Assembly: GCF_020740795.1 (NCBI RefSeq)
Contig: NC_067282.1
Location: 53,575,290-53,639,289, forward strand
Reading direction: 5' to 3'
DNA length: 64,000 nt
Source: Apus apus
Taxonomy: Eukaryota > Chordata > Aves > Apodiformes > Apodidae
Below the pieces are notes generated by a model that saw nothing but the letters and a program-made list of their open reading frames with translations, did not search any database and had not been told where the DNA came from. The position numbers were made by a program, and so were the translations under genes. This document shows positions 8,084 to 58,290 of the stretch, piece by piece (the first letter of the stretch is position 1; every line of letters starts with the position of its first letter).

Positions 8084-8493
8084 GATCACGGAGTCACGAA
8101 ACTGTCAGAGTTGGAAGGACCTCTAGAGATCATGGAGTCCAACTCCCCTGCTAAAGCAGGATCCCCTAGAGCACATTACTCAGGGCTGCATCCAGAAGGG
8201 TTTTGAGTGTCTCCAGAGAAGGAAACTCCACAACCTCCCTGGGCAGCCTGTTAAGGGCTCTGTCACCCTCATAGTAAAGAAGTTTTTCCTCATATTTAAG
8301 TGGAATTTCCTATGTTCCAGCTCGTGCCCGTTGCCCCTCGTCCTGTCACTGGGAACTACTGAAAAGAGTCTGGCTCCATCCTCCTTGCACACACCCTTTA
8401 GATACTTGTAGGCATTAGTAAGATCTCCCCTCAGGAGATCTTCTCTTCTGCAGGCTAAAGAGTCCCAGCTCTCTCAGCCTTTCCTTATAAGAG
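8084..8493 (-). mobile_element. CR1 LINE fragment
   Basis: This is a reverse-oriented CR1 3' region. Reading the + strand, it opens with the complement of the 3' tail and the phrase GTTGGAAGGACCTCTAGAGA. It continues through CCTCCCTGGGCAGCCTGTT and ends in the region complementary to the last part of ORF2 (CAGCTCTCTCAGCCTTTCC). It is about 400 bp and 5' truncated. Confidence 0.92.
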
Positions 8494-9160
8494 TGATTTC
8501 ATTAATTGTAGATGTGCAGGTTTTCCTTCATTGCTGTCTCCAGCTGAAGTTTCCAATTCTGTCATGTAGGGAAAGAAGAATGTTGTGCCACCTGTGGTCT
8601 TCAACACACACTTGGCCTTAAGCTTGGATGTTTCCCTCAGTAATGAGATTGTCTGATTTCACATATTGATGCCACAGAGAAGTTTGTGTCTTTTCTATCA
8701 AGTATAGATTTAGACTTAATTTGTAGATTTAGGCTTTCAGGCTTTTGTTGATAGCTTTATTCTCAGAAGAGAGGAGGATTTACAAGGAAATTAAAGAATT
8801 TAATAATAGTCTTGGTTTTGTACTCAAGATTTATTGCATGCAATTAAGTTCTCTAGGTTGTAACCTGTCTGCAGTTAGCTGCATTGGCCTTTTTATAGTC
8901 TAAGCTATCTGCTACCCTTGAACAAGAGTAGGTTTCAAGGGTGAGTTTTTCTTTCCCTTTTTCCTTTTTTTTTTTTTAGAGAGATAAATCAACACTTGCT
9001 CAGACCATGCTGTCATTTCAAATTAGTTTAAAATGAGATTGTCATGATGATCTTTGCTATGATCTGATTTCTAGTTTTGATTCAGTGTTAGATAACGTTC
9101 AAAACTTTAACTGCACTGCTGGTTTTAACTGCAAACCTCCCAGGCTACATCCAAAAAGGC

Positions 9161-12197: not shown

Positions 12198-12305
12198 GTT
12201 GCGCGGCTTATGGAAATGGGATTTTCCAGGGGAGATGCTCTAGAAGCTCTGAGGGCTTCAAATAATGACTTAAATGTAGCCACTAATTTTCTACTGCAGC
12301 ACTGA
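12198..12305 (+). CDS. UBAC2: UBAC2 last coding exon: C-terminal UBA domain and stop
   Basis: This exon carries 35 codons plus TGA (12303-12305) and encodes the whole ubiquitin-associated domain that ends UBAC2. The translation begins VARLMEMGFSRGDALEAL and ends NVATNFLLQH. The diagnostic MGF loop between helices 1 and 2 and the LL of helix 3 are visible; UBA domains of this type bind ubiquitin. The acceptor is TTTCTTTTTCCAG just before 12198. It is phase 0 and so continues the exon ending at 7732 without change of frame. The sequence is close to the human C-terminus as I remember it, which is strong evidence for a functional conserved gene. It ends at the usual family C-terminus. Confidence 0.96.
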   Translation, partial: VARLMEMGFSRGDALEALRASNNDLNVATNFLLQH

Positions 12306-20472: not shown

Positions 20473-21519
20473 CTAGACAGAGACGGAGCCGGGTGGCTGG
20501 TTGTTGCTGTTGCTCTCAGAGGGGGTCTTCGAGGTAGTGGTCACTGAGCCACTGTTCCTGAAGATGAGGAGCAGCCTCCGCTTGTAGCCCCGGAAGGCAA
20601 AGAAGTAGATGATGGGGTCTATGCAGCAGTTGAGGTTCATGAATGCCACAGTGACTTGAAGGGACATCTTGAAGGCTTGCTGCTCGCGGCAGGATGGCTG
20701 GTAGAGGATCTTCCTAACCATAAACTGAACGATGTTGATGTGGTAGGGGCTGAAGCAGAGCAGGACAGCCAGCAGCACCACCAGGATGATGGTGAAGGCC
20801 CGGCGGTGGTGCCCGTTCTTCACCGTCAGCGGGTTCTCCTTGGCAGTCTGGCAGAGCTTGAGGTTGATCCTCACGTAACACACCAAGATGATGCCCACGG
20901 GTAGGAAGAACCCGAGCACGCAAGCCCCCAGGAGCAGGTAAGGCAGTCTGGGAATCTCCTCGAAGTTGAAGTACTCCATGCACGTCAGCTTGTCCCCCAC
21001 CCTGCGCGTCATGGGCCGCAGCAGCAGCGGCGCCGTCTGCAGGAACACCAAGCACCAGATGAGGGCGCAGACGCCCCTGGCACGGCTCATCTTCCGAATC
21101 CTGCCGGGGTGCCTGGAGCGCACCACCGCGACGTAGCGGTCCACGCTCACGCAGGTCATGAAGTAGATGCCCACATAGGTGTTCATGTAGAAAACGAAGG
21201 CTGTGGCTCGGCAGAACCAGTCCCCAAAGGGCCAGTCGGACTCCAGGATGTAGTAGGCGATCCTGCCTGGCAGCGCCAGGGTGAAGAGGGCGTCAGAGAG
21301 CGCCAGGTTCACCAGGTAGAGGTCGGTGGAGTTGAGTTTCTTCTTCCTGCGCTGGAAGGTGATGCAGAGAGCCAGGATGTTGCCACAGGCACCGAACACC
21401 AGCAGGCCGGTGTAGAAAAGGGAGAACGTGACTTTGGAGGAGAAGTAGTGGTTGTGCACGTTGCAGCTGCTCTGGTTGGTGAGGTTGGCGGGCGGGAAGA
21501 GGGTCTCTGCAGCAGCCAT
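20473..21519 (-). CDS. GPR183-like: GPR183/EBI2-like class A GPCR (complete)
   Basis: A 348-residue seven-helix receptor in one coding exon. Hallmarks: N-glycosylation sites N12 and N15; helices near 31-56, 67-90, 103-133, 148-168, 195-219, 238-266 and 284-308; D76 in helix 2; disulfide pair C103-C180; DRY at 127-129; DPIIY at 301-305. The closest family I recognise is GPR183 (EBI2), the receptor for 7-alpha,25-dihydroxycholesterol that positions B cells, T cells and dendritic cells. Shared blocks include ALPGRIAYY, MEYFNFEE and CFSPYH. The residues reported to hold the oxysterol in human GPR183 have counterparts: R86 (2.60), Y111 (3.33), Y115 (3.37), Y259 (6.51). The N- and C-terminal tails are unlike GPR183, and identity looks like roughly half, so I read it as a paralogue, not the canonical orthologue. 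The start ATG has G at -3 and +4. The serine/threonine-rich C-tail could be phosphorylated for arrestin binding. Confidence 0.9.
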   Translation of the reverse strand: MAAAETLFPPANLTNQSSCNVHNHYFSSKVTFSLFYTGLLVFGACGNILALCITFQRRKKKLNSTDLYLVNLALSDALFTLALPGRIAYYILESDWPFGDWFCRATAFVFYMNTYVGIYFMTCVSVDRYVAVVRSRHPGRIRKMSRARGVCALIWCLVFLQTAPLLLRPMTRRVGDKLTCMEYFNFEEIPRLPYLLLGACVLGFFLPVGIILVCYVRINLKLCQTAKENPLTVKNGHHRRAFTIILVVLLAVLLCFSPYHINIVQFMVRKILYQPSCREQQAFKMSLQVTVAFMNLNCCIDPIIYFFAFRGYKRRLLLIFRNSGSVTTTSKTPSESNSNNQPPGSVSV

Positions 21520-21552
21520 TTCTGTGGTGCCTCCCGAGCTCTTGCCCTCTCC
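21520..21552 (-). other. 5' UTR part of the GPCR coding exon
   Basis: On the - strand a good splice acceptor (GTTCTTATTCCCAG) ends at 21553, leaving about 33 bp of 5' UTR before the start codon. This implies a separate upstream noncoding exon, a structure common among single-coding-exon GPCR genes, including GPR183. Confidence 0.55.
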
Positions 21553-22314
21553 CTGGGAATAAGAACAAACACGAAACTTGCAGTTTATTGATAACGGGAG
21601 CGGCGCCCGCAGAGCCGGTCCTGGTCAAGAAGGGAAAGGTCTGTCCTCTGCTCCCTGCCACCCCCCTGGCAGCAGACAGCTCGACTCATTTGGAAAAATG
21701 CATCTCTTGTGATTTCGGTGGTGAGCTTCTCACCAAAGGCTGTGACTCATTTTCATCTTCTTGTTACCAGCTCCTCTTATATTTTTTAATTTTTTTTAGG
21801 GGTTTTTTTTTTGTTTTTTTTTTTTTTTTTGCAGGTCCAATCAATACCAGAAAAGATGAGGAGCTGAGAGGGGAGATCATCTGTCACACAAACAAGATCC
21901 TAAACTCATCTGGTGACGGCGATGTCATTTATTCATCACCACGGGCAGGATAGGGGGCTTCATTGAGAAAATGCCCAGAAAGTGGTAGGAGTGGGGAGAG
22001 AGGAGGACTTGTGCAGCTGGGGAGGGGGTAAAGGCTGGAGGTGACAAGGAGGAACCTTCGCATCCCTCTGTCTGGGACCAGCGAGGCAAGAAAACCGAAG
22101 AAATTCGAAGAGAGGAAAAATCCCAGCCTTCCCCAAAAACCCCGTGCCCCGTGCCCGCCCGAAGCGGGGAGCACCCCGGCACCGAACCCCCGCTCCCCGC
22201 AAGTCCTCTCGCCCCGCCGGGCAGGGGCCAGCGGGACCCCCCCTCCATCCCTGGGGCTGCAGCAGCTCCTGGGACGCCCCGTCCCGGCCGCCGCCCCCCG
22301 GCCCCGCCGCTCAC
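21553..22314 (-). other. Putative 5'-UTR intron of the GPCR gene
   Basis: The sequence is bounded on the - strand by a strong donor (GTGAGCGGCG at 22314 downward) and the acceptor at 21553, a span of 762 bp. It includes a long T-rich stretch on the + strand (21782-21830), which is A-rich on the gene's strand. The intron is inferred from splice-site quality and CpG-island position only. Confidence 0.5.
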
Positions 22315-31300: not shown

Positions 31301-31496
31301 ATCTACAGCACTGTAGTAGTCTGATGACCTCAGCTGGCCTTGACCATTGATTACTAAACACACAATTTCACATGAGATGACCTGTTTGCCACGGTCTTAC
31401 TAGTTTTTTCTTAAAAAAGCATAAATGCATCCTAGTAGTCTGGGACAACAGTCTCATCATCCTAACCTGATTTAAATGTCAGCCCCTAAGAAGGGT
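28373..31496. other. Intergenic DNA
   Basis: Mixed sequence with two T-runs (28490-28510 and about 30738-30752). There are many short open frames but no recognisable protein, RNA gene or CR1 copy. Confidence 0.55.
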
Positions 31497-31580
31497 AAAA
31501 TAATTATTTACTAGAAATGAAGATGCAGTCGTTTCATTAAAATAATTATTTACTAGAAATGAAGATGCAGTAGTTTCATT
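31497..31580 (+). repeat. 42-bp tandem duplication
   Basis: Two adjacent copies of a 42-bp unit beginning AAAATAATTATTTACTAGAA, at 31497-31538 and 31539-31580. They differ at one position (TCG versus TAG). The near identity marks a recent local duplication. Confidence 0.95.
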
Positions 31581-34041
31581 AGCTAAACTTCGGTACTCCT
31601 CAGAAGCTGTAGATAAGTATTTGCACCATCTCCCCACCCACACTTGGTTCACAAATTCATAGCCTGGCTACAGCTGGCTGCCCAAATGCCTCTTGTTGTG
31701 AAAAAGCAGTTTCCACTTTTAGCATTTTCTGGTAACAGGGAACAAAAAGTCTTGACCACCTCCACGTCCTCCTGGCCACCACTGCCAGGATGATGTCCAC
31801 AGGTGGCCTGTCATACCACCCTCCCAAAGGTGCCCGGAGCTTGAAGCAGGAGCCTCCTGGTGCTTCCCACCATCTGCCTCCTGCCACCTCTCCACGTGCC
31901 ACCAACCCAGAGCCATGTTTCACTGTCTGGCTCCATACACACAGGCAGCCTGGAAAACCCTCTCTGGCTGGACCCAAAGCCAGACCTGCCCACAGGGATG
32001 GACTTTTGCCTCCTGGCTTTGTGGTGCTGCATTTGGCTCCTGCACCAAATTATTTAATTTCAGTGCTTGCACGGTTCTTACTTTGCAGGCAGTTGCTCCC
32101 AATATTTTTTTAGCACAGTTAAAAATGGAAACCCTTTTTCTGGTGCCCTGCATGTTGACAGTGGGATTAATGCTTGTAATTGGGTGCAGAGTGGGGTGAG
32201 GATGGGGGTGAAGGTGGTTTCATACTCAGAAGCATGTTTTCTTCTTGAGGTGTGGACATCTTCATCCTACTCTCTGAGGTAGACTCCCTCTGTGGGTGAA
32301 CTCTCCACGGCTCGCTGGGTCCAAGGGCTTGTGCACCATCACACAGGACTTCTGTGAAAGGAAAAGGTCTCATAAAATGTGCCAGGCTTAACAGTGAAAG
32401 GTATTTACCACTTGGATGACCCAGTTTTTAATCAGAAACCAGTCTGAGGTAAAAAGAAAGGTACCGCATTGAGGCACTTTTGTAAGGTCCACTGAGCAAA
32501 TGCTAATTAGATTCAAATTCATGCATGAGGTGTGGGCTTTTGTGGGAAGAAGTATCCCTGGGCAGAGAGACCATGCTCTGCGCAGGACAAGTGGAGACTG
32601 GGTCCAGCGGGGGACCCTCCAAGAAACCATTTGCTAATGTGCCTCCATGCTGCCAGGGGCAGCGTGCTGCCTGCCAGAGAGGAGCAGGGTGGCATGGGGC
32701 AATGCCACAGTGGGGTGGGACAGTCCCACCAGAGGAAGGGAGCATGCTGGGGTGCAAACTCACCCCTCACCAGCAGTATTGGACTTCCTCTGCCCTCCTG
32801 AGCTTGTCGGGTGTCTGCAGGGACCTGGTGCTCAGCCCTGAGCAGGGCGATGCCAGGGACAAGCCCTGGTACAGTAGGTGTGGCATGTTAACATCTCTGG
32901 GGCTTTCAGGAGGAGTGGGAAGGGACCCACCAAAGCCATGGTGATGTTGGTCCCATTATAAGATGCTCCAGCATCTATGGGGGAAAGTCACCCTGCTGTC
33001 ACACCCACTAGTGCACGGTGCAGCAGGGAAGAAGTGCGGAGCAGCTTCTGCGTTTCTGGTGGTGGGCATTTCTCTAGGCTTGGGCTGAGGAGGGTGGTGT
33101 AGGGTGTCAACAGGTCCTGGAGCAGATTCACAAAGGTGCTGGAGGGAGGAAGTGGTTGCTCTCATCTCCGGATGATCTGCTGCTGCACACCAATTGCAAA
33201 GATTTGTATGAGACCCATAAGAGAACTTGCCCTGAGCAGGCACGGAGTGATGGGGAGTTTGTGGGAAAAAAAAAAATGAAGGGAAGAAAATTTTTGTAAG
33301 GGGGGAAGAAAGCCATCCCATGTCACCTGTGGGCTTGAGACAAGTTGGCACAGCCCTGCTGAGTGCAGACCAAGCATGATGAAGGCCATCTCAGGCACTT
33401 CTCCACCAGCAGCCATAGCCCTGGGATCACAGAGGCTGCTGAGGTGCCAGGGAGCTGGCCTGGGCAGCAGGAGCCCTCCTTGTCCCGTGGGGAAGCAGCT
33501 GATGGGCCAGGGGCTGAAGGGGCTGATGCGCAGCAGGGCTGGCTCCACGCAGCAGGATGTGCAGACAGCAGATGGGCTGATGTGGCCAAGTACAGCAGCC
33601 TGTGTTGGCCCAGGGACTTGGTTTTGTGTAGGGGTCTGGTCTTGTGTGAGAGAGTCAGTGTTGTGCTGGAAGGAAGTAGGTAGAAGCGTGGGAGAAGGAG
33701 AGGATTCCCTGCTCTTTCTGAGCCCATCCTGAGCAGGGAGGGGGGACACAAGCTCTGGGCCCCAATCCATGTCCTCTCCGTAGTTGGAGATGCCAAAGAA
33801 ATGTTGATTTACAGCAAGAAACTAGGAAAAGGAAGAGAGAGCAAAATTAGGTTGCGATCCTCAGATGCTATTTTTAGGATACCTAGTGGTGAAATCTGCC
33901 CCTCCCCAGCATCCCTTGGAAGCAGGCTTGCCTTCCCATGCCCGCGAGAGACATCAGCTTGGGATTATGCACTAACAGTGATTAAAGCTACTGCAATAAT
34001 TGCCACTTATTAAAAGAATTAGATTGTATAATAGGAAAGAT
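31581..34041. other. Intergenic DNA
   Basis: No gene or CR1 copy is recognised. GC content is moderately high at 31.7-33.8 kb, with overlapping open frames on both strands that look like chance products of GC-rich DNA. Confidence 0.55.
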
Positions 34042-37694: not shown

Positions 37695-38358
37695 TTCTAT
37701 GCACTGATATAGGTTAGGGGTTGACCTGCTAGAAAGCAGCCCTGTGGAGAAGGACCTTGGGGTCAAGAAAGCCAATAGTATCTCAGGATTAAGAACAGTG
37801 TGGCCTTCAGGTCAAGGGAGGTTCTCCTCCCCGTCTACTCTTCTCCTGTAAGACCACATCTGGAGTATTGTGTCCAATTCTGGGCTCCCCAGTTCTAGAG
37901 GGACAGGGATATAATGGAAAGAGTCCAGTGGAGAGCTAGGAGGATGATTAAGGGACAAACATCTGTCATACGAGGAAAGGCTAAGACATCTGGGTCTGTT
38001 TAGTCTTGAGAAGACTGAGAGGGGACCTTATTAATGTCTATGAATATCTGAAGGGGGGATGTCAAGAATGGGCCAGTCTCTTTTCAGTGGTGCCCTGTGA
38101 TAAGACAAGGGGAAATGGCACCAAGTTGCAACACAAGAAGTTCCACCTCAACATGAGGTCACTGTGAGAGTGACAGAGCACTGGAACAGGCTGCCCAGGG
38201 AGGTTGTGGAGTCTCCTTCACTGGAGACATTCAAGACCCGCCTGGACGCCTTCCTGTGTGATGTGCTCTGGGTGACCCTGCTCTGGCAGGGGGGTTGGAC
38301 TAGATGATCTTTCGAGGTCACTTCCAATGCCTAAGATTCTGTGATTCTACAATTCTAT
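37695..38358 (+). mobile_element. CR1 LINE fragment
   Basis: About 660 bp in sense orientation. It starts inside the ORF2 region encoding the C-terminus (GGGGTTGACCTGCTAGAAAG, then CTGGAGTATTGTGTCCAATT). It runs through AACAGGCTGCCCAGGGAGGT and ends with the 3' tail AGATTCTGTGATTCTACAAT. Frameshifts break the reading frame. Confidence 0.94.
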
Positions 38359-40762: not shown

Positions 40763-41367
40763 TTAAGGTTCAAGTTGTTTCTCAAAGATGAGTTTGATGA
40801 TTGACTACAGCGTATGGATAGCTTCTGCTAACTAAACAGAAGATTCACCAGATCAAAAACTCCATCAGTGGGCTCCAACTTATTTCAGGCAGTCACAAAA
40901 CAAGGTTTTGTCTTCAGAAGATAACTGGTATTGGCTACTCCTGGAGTCACAGAGAAAAATAAAAGTATTTGAGTGGAAAGGTTAAAGGTTGAAGACACAG
41001 CTTTCACTCTCCTTTGAAGTCTCCTATGTCATAGTCCACAAGGTGTGTATGGTTTTCAGGGGGGTTACTGCCAGTACACTACTCTGCAATTCACAAGAAC
41101 ATTGAGCCATGATCACCATAAAGCACCATGGTTTGGAAGTCGGATATTGGTGGCTTTAAGACACTGGCTACCAAAGGCTGACAGGTTTTGTTGCAAACTT
41201 GTTTCTGAACCCCAGTATAGCCTCATACAAACCTATGAGGAAGAGCTAGGCTGGGCCCAGCCCTCAGGAGCCAGGATCTGGCAGATCTGCGCTCTCTCTC
41301 TGACCAAGGTGAACTGACTGATGGTTTGGGACATGCTTCCCTCTTGCTCCAGGGAAAGGACCAGAGA
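40763..41367. other. Intergenic DNA
   Basis: About 600 bp of unique-looking sequence between two CR1 fragments of opposite orientation. Nothing recognisable. Confidence 0.5.
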
Positions 41368-41866
41368 ATCACAGAAACGATGATTGGATGGGACTGTTGG
41401 AGGTCATCCAGTCCAATCCCCCATTGCAGCAGGTCTACCACCAACATTTTACTATTAAGTCAGCCTTCATTTAGCTAAGTCATAAAAAGTCTCCAAGGAA
41501 GGAGCCTCCACCACCTCTCTGGAGCACCTGGTGGAGAATGTTTCCCTAATGGCCAACTTGAACTTACCCATCTGACTTGAGTGGCTGTTGCCCCTTGTTG
41601 TGTCCTCGGGCACCACCAAGAAGAGTTTGGCTCTGTTGTTTTTGTACCTGCTCTCCAGGCAGCCACAAGCTGCTGTTCGGTCACCCTTTGGGGCTTCTCT
41701 TCACTAGGCAAAACAAGCCCAGCTCCCTCCACCTCCCTCACGCTGCACGTGCGCTCCAGACCCCTGGCCATGGTGGCAACCCTCAGCCAGACCTGTCCAG
41801 GTTTTCCACATCCCCCTGAAGCAGAAGTCCCAAAGTGGGTGCAGTACTCCAGGTGCAGTCCCACCA
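41368..41866 (-). mobile_element. CR1-derived fragment, inverted-repeat arm A
   Basis: Reverse-oriented CR1 3' region. Its 3' part (41368-41477) is diverged from the related element at 46255-47303. From 41478 to 41866 it is nearly identical to the reverse complement of that element. Positions 41565-41866 match without a single difference. The match stops sharply at 41866, after TGCAGTCCCACCA. Confidence 0.85.
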
Positions 41867-44800
41867 CTACTGGGAAGGGAAAGTGCATGGTGCCAGCTCT
41901 TGCAGCCACAGCCTTATTTTGTGGGCCAATGCATGGTGTGGGCACCACCATGTCTCCATTCACGTTCCCACCACTGGCTTTTGGTCAAAGGAGGTCAAAA
42001 GGGTTGATGTAAACTAGGAGAAATGGGGCACTTTCAGTTACAGCTGAAGCTCTGGTGACAAAGCACCAGAACCCTCTCCTCAGGATCTGCATGTAATTAG
42101 CCATGCTTATTCAGTAAATCAGAGCAGCACCCAACTTGTGTCCTCCTGTTCCTTGAGTTCGTGTTTCTGTCTAAGGCTTTACCAAAACATACTTTTATAT
42201 CCTAATTTCCTTATAGTAAACCCCTCACTCTGTCGTTCATCGATACCAAGTGGTGTACATGTAAGAGCAGGCTAATATTATGTATATATTACCAGCTTTA
42301 TGAGCTCAAGAATTACAATGTGCTTGCTTTATTTAGGTGGTAAACTTTTTTAATGAGTCTGGAGGGTCCTTTATATAAAAGTAGTGACTTGCTTGGAATC
42401 TCTTTCCATGTTTATTAGAAATGTGTTTTATTTTACCATGAAAAAAAGCCAAGGAAACATGCAGCCTTAAAGTCTAATGAAGTAGTTACCCATGCAGTCA
42501 AAGTTCATAAATTTTAAATACATTTAATTTATAAATTGAAAACATAGCTTGCACTGGCTTTTTCAAGATTATTGCTTGCCACAGGGGTTTGAAGATAGTT
42601 GCTGGGCTGTGTTTTTCTTTCAAGGCCGAGACTGAATCTTCACTGTTTGATCACAGGCATTCTTATGTTTTTAAGGGAAAAAAAAAAGTATTTCTCTTTA
42701 AAATATTAAAAATCACAACCCAGCTTGCAGCCTCTTTGTTCTCAACTCAGATAAGACTTGCTTTCGAGCTGCCACTTAATAGAGAGCTCTTTCTCATGGT
42801 GAGAAACCCTTTGTCCCTCTGGAGACCTTTTTTCCAAGCTAATTGCAGAGTGCAGTCCCTGCAGTGGCACTCAGAGCCAGATTTCAGTCTCACACCAATA
42901 AAACCTCAGTGCCAGCCTGGCTTAGGAGCCCAGCCCCTAGGAAAAGGGAATTCAGGGAAGGGTGGGAAGGAAGATGCCAGTTCCCCACTTTTGCCCTCTG
43001 CAGTCCTCAGGCTGCTCATCCGTCCCTCATGAGCAGCTCTGATGGCAAAAGCTCTGTCATAAATTATCCTACTTGCAAAGCAGTCTTGGGTGCAAAACAT
43101 GCCATAGGGATGGCTGGCATTTGGCAGGGCTCTGCCTGCATTGGGAGGAGGCAAGAGGAGGGCACCAGCCTTATGCCTGCTGGGATTTCCACCAGACACC
43201 CCACTGCCTTGCACCAGTGCCACCACAAAGTGAGCCAGCAGCTAGATGACAACTGCAGGATTGCTGCTTGTTGATTCAGAGTCAGTTCTGGAGCTTCAAA
43301 TAATTTTAGATGGATGTTACAGAAACAGGAATGTGCCTGTGACAAGGGAAAGCATCAAGCCCACAGGATTTTATATGGACAATCTCCCCAGGCTTCTTTC
43401 AGCAATGCACCAGTATAGGTGAATGAAACAGGGTAGCAGGGCTCATCTTCCCCAGTTCCATGCCTCCAAACTGGTCAGTTATACCTAAGCCAGTTCAGAA
43501 AGATATTTCTCTCACCTAGCCTCCAGTGATGGACTGGCCACAGCATCCCTCACCCTGTGGGTCCCTGTCCTAACATTTAAAAATATTTTTCCTACACGGA
43601 TCTCACGTAAGGGCCATTTCTGCATGTCTCATCCAGACAACTCCATCCTTATCTGCACAGGCACCTCCAAGGATTTCTGCCCCACCACTTCTCCCCTCTC
43701 CTCCCTCCCTGGCCCCACAGCCCCCACCTCGCTGCCGAGCCAGCGTCACACGCCAGGCCCAGACAGCGCAGGGAGCGGGGCTGGTAATTGGAAAGGGGAG
43801 TAGCCAAGCACCAAAGCTTATCAACCAGCAGCAGGGGAGAGCTTAGCAGGCATCCTCAGGAACCTGGCCCCAGGTCTGGAGTGGGCTGGCAGCCTGTTGC
43901 TCAGTGGCACAGGGGGAGACATGCGTGGCTGCTCCACTCGAAGCAGGGACTGCCATGATGAAGGGAGGGGATGGCTGGTCGGCCTGTGCAGCCTCCTCTT
44001 TTTGCCAGGGCTGCTGAGAGAGAGCAGGGTGGGAGGGGGAAACCAGCCCAGCTCAGGGCACCCGTGCTCCCCAGGTGCTTTCAGGGTAGCCATAGGTATG
44101 AGGTATGGCTTCTTGGCCACTGAAGTGCCACCAAGAGCTGTCGCTATGCACGCAGAAGTAGCAGCTGTTTCCTCATATATCTTTTATTCATTAAACAAGG
44201 AGTCTAAATATAGCCCTGACCAGCGCCAGCAAGAGCTGGTGGGTGCCCTCTGTGGTTGGGTCTATGCTGCCTGCCTACCTGCAGCCCTGGTTTTCTGCAC
44301 CAGAGCCTTCATTTTGCCAGTGCCCTCTGCTCTCAACCCTGGGGCAGAGGGATAATTTGCATTACAGGTTGTTACCCCGCACACAGGAAAAGCTTGCAGC
44401 CTCAGGAACAGAGCCAGAACAGTCCTCCCATGCTTCTGCTAGCCTGCAGTACCCTGTGCAGTCCTCCCCTCCATCCTTACACTACCAGGTCATATCACTC
44501 CTGTCTGGATGTTGGGACACACCAGGCTCTTGCTGTGGCCAACATGGGTAAAACACAGGAGTTCAAAGCACAGCTCCTTTTGCAGGAGTTGTTCTCACTC
44601 ATTACCCCAGATGGGTCCATCGGAAGCCCCCCGGTCCCAACAGGGGACTATTTTATCTTTCCAAGGAGGTAAAGTAGGAAATTATTATCTTTGCTGAAGG
44701 CTGGGAAACATTCAGAGTGTATCAGAAATATCTGATATTTTCATAGTCTGTGTCCCTTGGCTTCAGTTGAGGCTTGATGCTGGGTAGCAGTGTCTACACA

Positions 44801-46254
44801 CCTATCAACCACTCACTGCCAGCCAACACTCCCCCCTTCACACAGAAATTTATTAAAAATAGTGGGCAAGAAGAGGGAAGACACCTCGTGTCCCTCTGTG
44901 GATTTTAGGCTACACCCCAGATGTAGCTTCTGTAGGAGTCACATGTGTCCATCCCTTTTCCCAGAGCTGTAATAAATGAAAAAGTTAGTCAAGGGAGAAA
45001 ATTGAATGCATATTTGCACTTTGTCTGACAAAGAAAAAGGTTATGGATGTTTAAAAGTTTGTTCTCATATTCTAGGTAAAGGAATATAGTTGCAACTTCC
45101 TACATCTTGAAATATGATGTCATTTATCAGCTTAATATTGATTTCATGTTTTGTCAGTTCCTACCAAAACAGACTTTCCAATGCAGTAAAAATTCTACAT
45201 AGACTCCAAAGCTCCTTGGAGGAGCAGTCCACAATGAGCTTTTGTCATCTCTCAGTGCATCTGTCTTGGAGTGCATCTTTCCTTGGAGTCAATGGAAGAA
45301 CACACTTTCCTATGCCTTGCATTCCTTCTACTACAATACTTGAGGGAGCACAGCGTTTTATGGAGATAAAAGCTTGTAAGTGGCATGATAGTCTCATCAG
45401 ATGTAATCTGCCTTTTAGTGAACGGCCTCACATCCATCCTCCCTTGCCCACAGATAATTTTTCTCGGTAGCTGGAAATCTAACTCTCCATTTCTCAATTC
45501 TTCTCTTGGGATAACAGTATATAATAAAAAAAAAGTCAGTGAGCAAATATGTGGTGGTGAAGCCAAAGGAATTGTGTTCTTTTGAGACAAAACTCTCTTT
45601 ACTTACAGCTGAGTAGACAGAGATTAAGTTATAAGGATTCTGGGCTCCTTGCCAATTCATCCCCATCTGCTTGTCAGGAACAAAGGCTTCGTTATTTGGC
45701 TCGGTAAGAGACAGGGCAGTGGGCCATGGCTGTGCCCTCCCACAGGTGTTTCCCCACCCAAAGGAGCTGCTTTTGCCTGGGACTGCCAGCACTCATGCTC
45801 CGTGTCAGTGACAGAGGGAGGGCCAGGGCTGGCTTGCTAGTAGAGGTGGGCACTACTCAAGAAAAAAACCACCTGGATAGAAGAGAAATGAATGAAGATG
45901 GGTATGTGAGGCTTACGGAAATAATAATAATAAAAAGGTAGGTGTGGGAAATGAAGAAAGTCAAGAAAATGGGTTTTTCAGTGTGCCTGTGAGATCAAAG
46001 CTCATGGAGTCACAGAGATACAGGCTGACAGACCATGGGGACTATGAGCAACTGGAAGAGTTGGTTGTTCCTGGAGCTATGTGACTGTTTAACCAGCATA
46101 CTGTGAAACATGTGAGAAGTTACAAGTGCAAGCCCAAGAACCACATACCCTTCCCACAGCCTCAACATCAGCCTCTTTCTGGATCTTGTCCTGTGTATGA
46201 GAAAGCAAGCTGAAATGAGAAGGAGCCTTGACTGAGTGCCAGGCATGACACTTA
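41867..46254. other. Intergenic DNA between the inverted CR1 arms
   Basis: No gene is recognised. The stretch holds A/T-rich unique sequence at 42.0-42.6 kb and more GC-rich sequence at 42.8-44.7 kb with overlapping meaningless frames. A short ATA trinucleotide run lies near 45921. Confidence 0.55.
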
Positions 46255-47303
46255 GGTTTGGAATCTCAGGAAGCCTGGGATGAGTATGTGTTGAATGGTC
46301 CAATGCCTGTTTTACTGTCAGGTGGTTTGAAAACTGCTTGGACCATTGGGATAAAAAGGCAGTGAACATCATCTTGATGACCATTTGGTAGCTAGTAACA
46401 AGCAGAGTGCCCCAAGGGTTGATATTGGTGCCAGTATCATTCCTATTCTCATCAAAGTCCTAAATGAGGAGGCACAATGCACATCTGTAAATATATAATG
46501 CTCAGATGGATCTGTGGATCATGCAAAACTAAGAGAATGGCTGACAAACTGAATAGTAGATTGTCAATAGATAGACCTCAAAAACCTGAGGACTGCACCA
46601 GCAGAAATCCCATGAAGTCAAAGATGTGAAAAGTTCTGCAGCTGGAACAGAATAACCCCAAGCTGGGAAGTAACAGCTCTGTTGAAACAGACCTGGGGAT
46701 TGTGGTTGGTGACAAGAGGAATATGAGTGCAAATAACTGCAAATTGAATGCTCAGCAGTGCTGGAAGGAGGGTGGCCAACAGATTGAACTGAACATCTGC
46801 CTGGCACTGGTGGGACTGCACCTGGAGTACTGCACCCACTTTGGGACTTCTGCTTCAGGGGGATGTGGAAAACCTGGACAGGTCTGGCTGAGGGTTGCCA
46901 CCATGGCCAGGGGTCTGGAGCGCACGTGCAGCGTGAGGGAGGTGGAGGGAGCTGGGCTTGTTTTGCCTAGTGAAGAGAAGCCCCAAAGGGTGACCGAACA
47001 GCAGCTTGTGGCTGCCTGGAGAGCAGGTACAAAAACAACAGAGCCAAACTCTTCTTGGTGGTGCCCGAGGACACAACAAGGGGCAACAGCCACTCAAGTC
47101 AGATGGGTAGGTTCAAGTTGGCCATTAGGGAAACGTTCTCCACCAGGTGCTCCAGAGAGGTGGTGGAGGCTCCTTTCTTGGAGGCTTTTTATGACTCGGC
47201 TGGATAAAGGCACGACTGACCTAACAGTGTATTACTGGTGGTAGTCCTGTTTTGATTGGTGTGATCTTTAGTGTCCCATCCAACCACCATTTCTGTGATT
47301 CTG
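46255..47303 (+). mobile_element. Long, old CR1 LINE fragment, contains inverted-repeat arm B
   Basis: About 1.05 kb in sense orientation. The 5' part is a heavily decayed reverse-transcriptase region (GTGGTTTGAAAACTGCTTGG, GTGCCCCAAGGGTTGATATT, GCAAAACTAAGAGAATGGCT). The middle (46808-about 47195) is the arm shared with 41478-41866. The 3' end decays again and finishes CATTTCTGTGATTCTG. The 5' boundary is approximate because divergence is high. Confidence 0.8.
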
Positions 47304-57937: not shown

Positions 57938-58290
57938 TGAAGGGGGAAGGGAGAAGGGGGAAGGGGGAAGGGAGTGGAGGGAAGAGGGAAGGGAAGGGAA
58001 GGGGGAAGGAAAGGGAAGGGAAGGGGGAAGGAAAGGGAAGGGGGAAGGAAAGGGAAGGGGGAAGGAAGGGGAAGGAAAGGGAAGGGAAGGGGGAAGGAAA
58101 GGGAAGGGAAGGGGGAAAGAAAGGGAAGGGAAGGGGGAAGGAAAGGGAAGGGAAGAGAAAGGAAGGGAAAGGAAGGGAAGGGGGAAGGAGGGAGGGAAGG
58201 AGAGAGGGAGGGAACGGAGGGGGAAGAAGTGGAAGGAAGGGAGGGGAGGAGGAAGGGAGGGAGGATGGAAGGGAGGGAGGGAGGCAGAGG
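57938..58290 (+). repeat. TM9SF2: Long polypurine tract (GGGAAGG/GGAAA)n
   Basis: About 350 bp composed almost wholly of G and A on the + strand, with only a few isolated pyrimidines. It is built from GGGAAGGGGGAAGGAAAGGG-like units. The tract ends about 325 bp before the TM9SF2 start codon. Such homopurine mirror-like sequence can form triplex (H-DNA) or G-quadruplex structures, and it explains the long low-complexity open frames in this area. Confidence 0.93.

Follow-up and report, generated by a model that had tools for sequence, protein, structure and literature searches.

The window analysed here is a stretch of 64,000 nucleotides of Apus apus, located at C1:53575290-53639289 of a 1.10-Gb assembly, and it contains two inverted repeat arms lying between GPR183 and the putative first exon of TM9SF2. 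The receptor gene is represented by a long reading frame on the minus strand (20476-21624), which matches PF00001 and has GPR183 as its closest solved structure (PDB 7tuz, E = 1.3e-106). A terminal exon with a UBA domain (12198-12305, plus strand; PF00627, E = 8.7e-12), which we take to be probably the end of UBAC2, stops a long way short of GPR183. Since the human GPR183 gene is nested within UBAC2, the gene layout may differ here. The putative first exon near 58.6 kb presumably belongs to TM9SF2, which it resembles; a Pfam scan of its frame and a PDB search with part of that frame returned no match. Just upstream of it there is a GGGAA-type minisatellite array (57939-58282). Elsewhere in the window, a 42-bp unit is duplicated in tandem (31496-31581, 97% match), probably by a recent local duplication. 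No exon was recognised over the arms in a non-systematic look.

Both arms belong to a repeat family that we take to be CR1. The features used below are as follows (W>S, AT-to-GC changes; S>W, GC-to-AT changes).

41365-41866, minus strand: left arm (L), putative 5'-truncated CR1 fragment of about 500 bp with its 3' terminus at about 41365; matches the CR1 3' profile to position 549 of 550, and its likeness to R ends at 41866
46320-47303, plus strand: right arm (R), longer putative CR1 fragment of at least 980 bp, from the upstream (575-column) and 3' (550-column) CR1 profiles
41565-41866, minus strand: identical core in L, 302 bp, from exact match and alignment
46808-47109, plus strand: the 302-bp identical core as found in R; relative to the CR1 consensus it has 53 W>S and 39 S>W changes, and its GC is 57.9%
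41478-41564, minus strand: near-identical zone in L, from alignment
47110-47196, plus strand: near-identical zone in R, from alignment
41365-41477, minus strand: 3' tail of L, diverged and presumed unconverted, from alignment with R
47197-47303, plus strand: 3' tail of R, diverged and presumed unconverted, from alignment with L
46320-46807, plus strand: stretch of R with no counterpart in L, used as internal control; 45 W>S and 102 S>W changes, GC 43.5%
41867-46807, no strand: 4,941 bp of spacer separating the identical cores, including the unshared 5' part of R

A base-by-base alignment of the arms, proposed as a check in an earlier sequence-only reading of this DNA, divides them into three zones with 0 differences in 302 columns, 4 in 87 and 29 in 106. 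The central claim of that reading, that 41565-41866 and 46808-47109 are exact reverse complements of each other, holds at 302 of 302 positions. The adjoining 41478-41564, said to differ from its partner at about four sites, indeed differs from 47110-47196 in 4 of 87 columns, and the clear divergence noted outside the core is seen as 29 differences in the last 106 aligned columns (41365-41477 versus 47197-47302), namely 24 mismatches and 5 gap runs, each gap run being counted once. On the opposite side the likeness stops as abruptly as described, with 5 of 11 columns mismatched just past 41866/46808 and none of the likeness left thereafter. Only the outer limit of the pair has to be shifted, because the likeness does not end at 41478/47195 but runs on to 41365/47302, the CR1 3' end. 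When the 38 differences were shuffled 20,000 times over 506 positions, a perfect run of 302 never occurred, the longest being 159. In the alignment, paralogous sequences thus pass abruptly from being diverged to being identical, the pattern by which a tract of nonallelic gene conversion is recognised. A distinction between the 87-bp zone and the core is suggestive: giving it a boundary of its own costs two additional parameters for a gain of 4.6 in lnL and is not favoured by BIC. The 4 differences in this zone are split into two derived in L and two derived in R, and a 24-column deletion within it is common to both arms.

The nature of the arms was assessed with a 550-column CR1 3' profile of 95 copies, from which the arms were masked; the copies come from the window, 18 sampled stretches and 28 loci fetched for their resemblance to the arms, and constitute a non-random sample. 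Both arms match the profile at about 204 bits each, reaching positions 548-549 of 550, and share the features of a CR1 copy, namely membership of a numerous family whose copies are truncated at the 5' end and share one 3' terminus. The arm-to-arm likeness spans the distance from the 5' truncation point of L to the CR1 3' terminus, which argues for two separate retroposition events and against duplication of a block. Judging by these profile matches, each arm appears to be a 5'-truncated CR1 fragment with an insertion event of its own. An inverted segmental duplication, which had been offered as an alternative to gene conversion, is at odds with likeness that ends at the CR1 3' terminus on one side and at the 5' truncation of L on the other; with no likeness beyond the repeat's own ends, duplication of an inverted block was rejected.

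The arms are also old. They were said to carry many changes relative to other CR1 copies in the window, and they are in fact only 58-63% alike to the other copies found there by BLAST. The core differs from the CR1 consensus in 118 of 299 columns, the non-consensus states being common to both arms; this divergence of 39%, together with the finding that in heuristic genome-wide searches only the arms match each other at high identity, agrees with the earlier view that they are not two young insertions from one source. The same non-consensus states of the core are found to a considerable extent in L016 (41 of 100), L005 (39 of 103) and L022 (21 of 61), versus about 10-25% in the remaining 38 of the 41 copies that cover 120 core columns or more, which places the arms in a CR1 lineage that is old; their likeness to L016 and L005 is about 61%. 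For the tails, 12 states are common to both arms, 10 are found only in L, 9 only in R, and 12 differ in both arms. Evidence for a LINE-type reverse transcriptase is modest: a reading frame of the related copy L015 matches RVT_1 (E = 3.1e-5, below the Pfam curated cut-off), RVT_1 was not detected in the reading frame of the related copy L048, and the arm frames 46630-47241 and 41478-41984 yielded no Pfam families. Stops are present in the upstream stretch of R at 46300-46629. An RNA gene was rejected on finding no Rfam family at the gathering threshold and no tRNA. Selective constraint on the core was likewise unsupported, the core being off-consensus in 118 of 299 columns versus 186 of 485 in the unshared upstream part.

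Searches of the bird's own 1.10-Gb assembly were performed with a heuristic that skips very common words, so that match counts are lower bounds. A 404-bp query (41463-41866) gave at least 32 scored matches, two of which are the arms themselves; the others are 28 short matches (35-57 bp, 84-95%) and two of 149-177 bp at 69%. A longer left-arm query gave at least 38 matches, with high identity over any length only in the two arms. Many further copies of the 302 bp, which according to the sequence-only reading would have turned the arms into members of a young repeat subfamily, did not appear in either heuristic search, and the young-subfamily explanation was rejected. Repeat pairs of at least 60 bp with a 28-bp exact seed were found in none of 18 further 10-kb samples from this assembly, with simple repeats filtered and two fetched stretches overlapping the window left out. 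The window does contain another inverted CR1 pair (8091-8497 and 37961-38347, about 74% alike, 29 kb apart). It has no identity step: its 90 differences are spread over 393 columns with a longest run of 28, a value reached in 240 of 5000 shuffles, and this pair is an unconverted comparison.

The search results also bear on a scenario in which L arose by recent chimeric retroposition, the reverse transcriptase having begun on another CR1 RNA and then switched to the sequence of R. Such an event would account for the 5' truncation of L, which resembles that of a retroposed copy, and for its end at the CR1 3' terminus. We nevertheless regard it as extremely improbable, because the tail of L looks old and no young donor was seen in the heuristic genome search. 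Besides R, this tail has matches of 79-81% over 63-75 bp, 88% over 43 bp and about 70% over 157-173 bp.

Gene conversion is usually GC-biased. If the shared block has been converted repeatedly with such a bias, G/C-favouring changes are expected inside it and not outside. R serves as its own control, since its upstream 488 bp are absent from L. At like divergence from the consensus, the off-consensus columns of R comprise 45 W>S and 102 S>W changes in the upstream part (186 of 485 columns; GC 43.5%) versus 53 W>S and 39 S>W changes in the core (118 of 299 columns; GC 57.9%), a significant contrast (Fisher p = 4.7e-5) in which polarity is read against a consensus dominated by CR1 lineages other than that of the arms. 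The corresponding log odds ratio is 1.12 in R versus -0.51 to +0.40 in 10 other CR1 copies, none of them significant, and the raw GC difference, core minus upstream, is +0.145 versus -0.063 to +0.012; these control copies, which span both parts, are less diverged than R and come from other lineages. A blind two-changepoint split of the 289 directional changes of R singles out a block at 46760-47149 (74:51) between flanks with 34:92 and 13:25. Its gain was matched in 2 of 2000 full-grid shuffles, and each of its edges lies about 48 bp away from the corresponding edge of the shared block.

Relative to the tail the signal is weaker. GC content of the core exceeds that of the tail by 0.132 in L and 0.122 in R, compared with a maximum of +0.104 in the 32 of 95 copies spanning both. 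Over all columns, however, the whole-tail W>S:S>W counts do not differ significantly from the core, either in R (12:18, p = 0.14) or in L (10:17, p = 0.08). The three closest sister copies have no match to the upstream profile and are therefore unusable as upstream controls. Since the sister L016 itself has a core-tail GC step of +0.104, part of the core GC may be inherited, i.e. predate the insertion. Core changes that the sisters have in common with the arms are unbiased (28:30), whereas those remaining after removal of sister-shared changes give W>S:S>W counts of 23:8 in the core, 7:3 in the 87-bp zone and 3:9 in the tail (core plus 87-bp zone versus tail, p = 0.005); against the three sisters alone the core excess is weak (p = 0.04). 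Taken together, the AT-to-GC excess is confined to the converted stretch, strongly so when compared with the upstream part and more weakly when compared with the tail. The shared block bears the mark of GC-biased gene conversion, a point that goes beyond the earlier reading.

These observations can be set against a single recent conversion, in which one of the old CR1 arms received some 302-390 bp from its partner, with no long history behind it. The sharp identity step fits one tract, but the W>S excess among the old changes of the core is left unexplained. Moreover, the starting point of the event would have been a pair of arms differing as much as the tails now do (29 of 106). According to part of PMC3966225, efficient conversion needs about 92% likeness and uninterrupted identity estimated at more than 200 bp (mouse) or 337-456 bp (human), and such arms would fall below these needs. 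The 4 differences in 87 columns, two derived in each arm, further suggest an older tract, although its boundary is not favoured by BIC. We consider a single event unlikely.

Replication template switching, by which a piece of R would have been copied in inverted orientation to the left site, could produce the abrupt end at 41866. The core, however, runs in register into a CR1 tail and on to the 3' terminus, which is not expected of a random landing, and the GC step is again left without explanation; we rate such a templated insertion as very improbable. Very little probability attaches also to an artefact of assembly or polishing that made two similar arms identical, given that the window contains no N, that the 1.10-Gb assembly is contiguous, at 110 contigs, that the whole arm pair spans only about 5.9 kb and that the GC footprint is independent of the final identity.

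We therefore come back to conversion between the inverted CR1 copies, which had been proposed from the outset and is the best reading; "recent" covers only part of it, because the GC footprint points to repeated events over a long time. The probable history is one of two old CR1 insertions, 4.9 kb apart, between which GC-biased ectopic conversion has acted again and again to homogenise their sequences. A single old CR1 lineage would have given rise to both copies, each retroposed independently, in opposite orientation and about 5 kb apart; since then, recurrent nonallelic gene conversion would have prevented their shared 5' portion of about 390 bp from diverging, probably by way of inverted arms pairing within a chromatid or between sister chromatids. 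On one side, conversion would be limited by the 5' truncation of L, where the likeness ends; on the other it would fade toward the 3' tail, which presumably escaped and diverged. With conversion favouring G/C, the converted block would have become GC-richer than both flanks, and the last event may be recent enough for no difference to have arisen yet in the 302 bp. As the tails lie far below the likeness of about 92% cited in part of PMC3966225, we infer that the core never drifted that far, i.e. that conversion began early and recurred.

An approximate time scale may be attached to this history. All dates rest on substitution rates of 1.2-3e-9 per site per year. At these rates, the last conversion of the core would have occurred less than 1.7-4.1 My ago (95%), and the tails would be 48-119 My apart (24 mismatches in 101 columns), or 69-173 My apart when aligned through the profile (31 of 97). 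The last homogenisation thus probably took place within a few million years. More speculatively, and with somewhat less than even confidence, the locus might be regarded as a miniature autosomal palindrome born of two chance LINE insertions, in which about 390 bp stayed homogeneous from soon after insertion, over tens of My, as a self-sustaining two-copy unit of concerted evolution and a local hotspot of GC-biased conversion, possibly with recurrent flips of the 4.9-kb spacer.

If repeated conversion is indeed the history of this locus, separately retroposed copies can stay conversion partners long after the other copies of their lineage have drifted to about 60% likeness, and an element's own unconverted parts can serve as a built-in reference against which GC-biased conversion at a single site is measured. 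Converted pairs of this kind would mislead the dating of transposable elements and could seed inversions. As the earlier reading proposed, these arms might favour inversion of the segment that separates them and might yield double-stranded RNA if both were transcribed together.

The process itself is already known. Nonallelic gene conversion between neighbouring Alu elements of primates was reportedly described by Aleshin and Zhi in 2010. Conversion among Alus within about 10 kb, with an optimum at 89-100% likeness, is stated in part of PMC8230782, and elevated conversion rates within 10 kb in part of PMC6598467. As in those partial accounts, neighbouring retroposed copies within about 10 kb appear to have been homogenised by conversion, but here the partners are an old, diverged and inverted pair of CR1 LINEs in a bird, with a GC footprint, and their unconverted ends are well below the 89-100% optimum given there for Alus. 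Among CR1 elements of birds, both arms are ordinary insofar as they match the CR1-type profile of 95 copies, but the lineage they represent is old and has diverged strongly, few relatives having been seen (L005, L016 and L022). Reports of conversion between CR1 pairs were not found among the open-licence papers surveyed, as judged by titles and the openings of abstracts. The inverted arrangement is paralleled by palindrome P6 of the human Y chromosome, for which part of PMC3723533 describes GC-biased conversion between the inverted arms and much rarer inversions. The likeness lies in inverted arms homogenised by GC-biased conversion; P6, however, is on the Y, with inferred tracts of about 2 kb on average according to the same partial source, whereas the CR1 arms measure 0.5 kb, derive from two retroposition events and lie on a 206-Mb contig. 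An inverted LINE pair that carries its own internal GC control is a good specimen of this known process.
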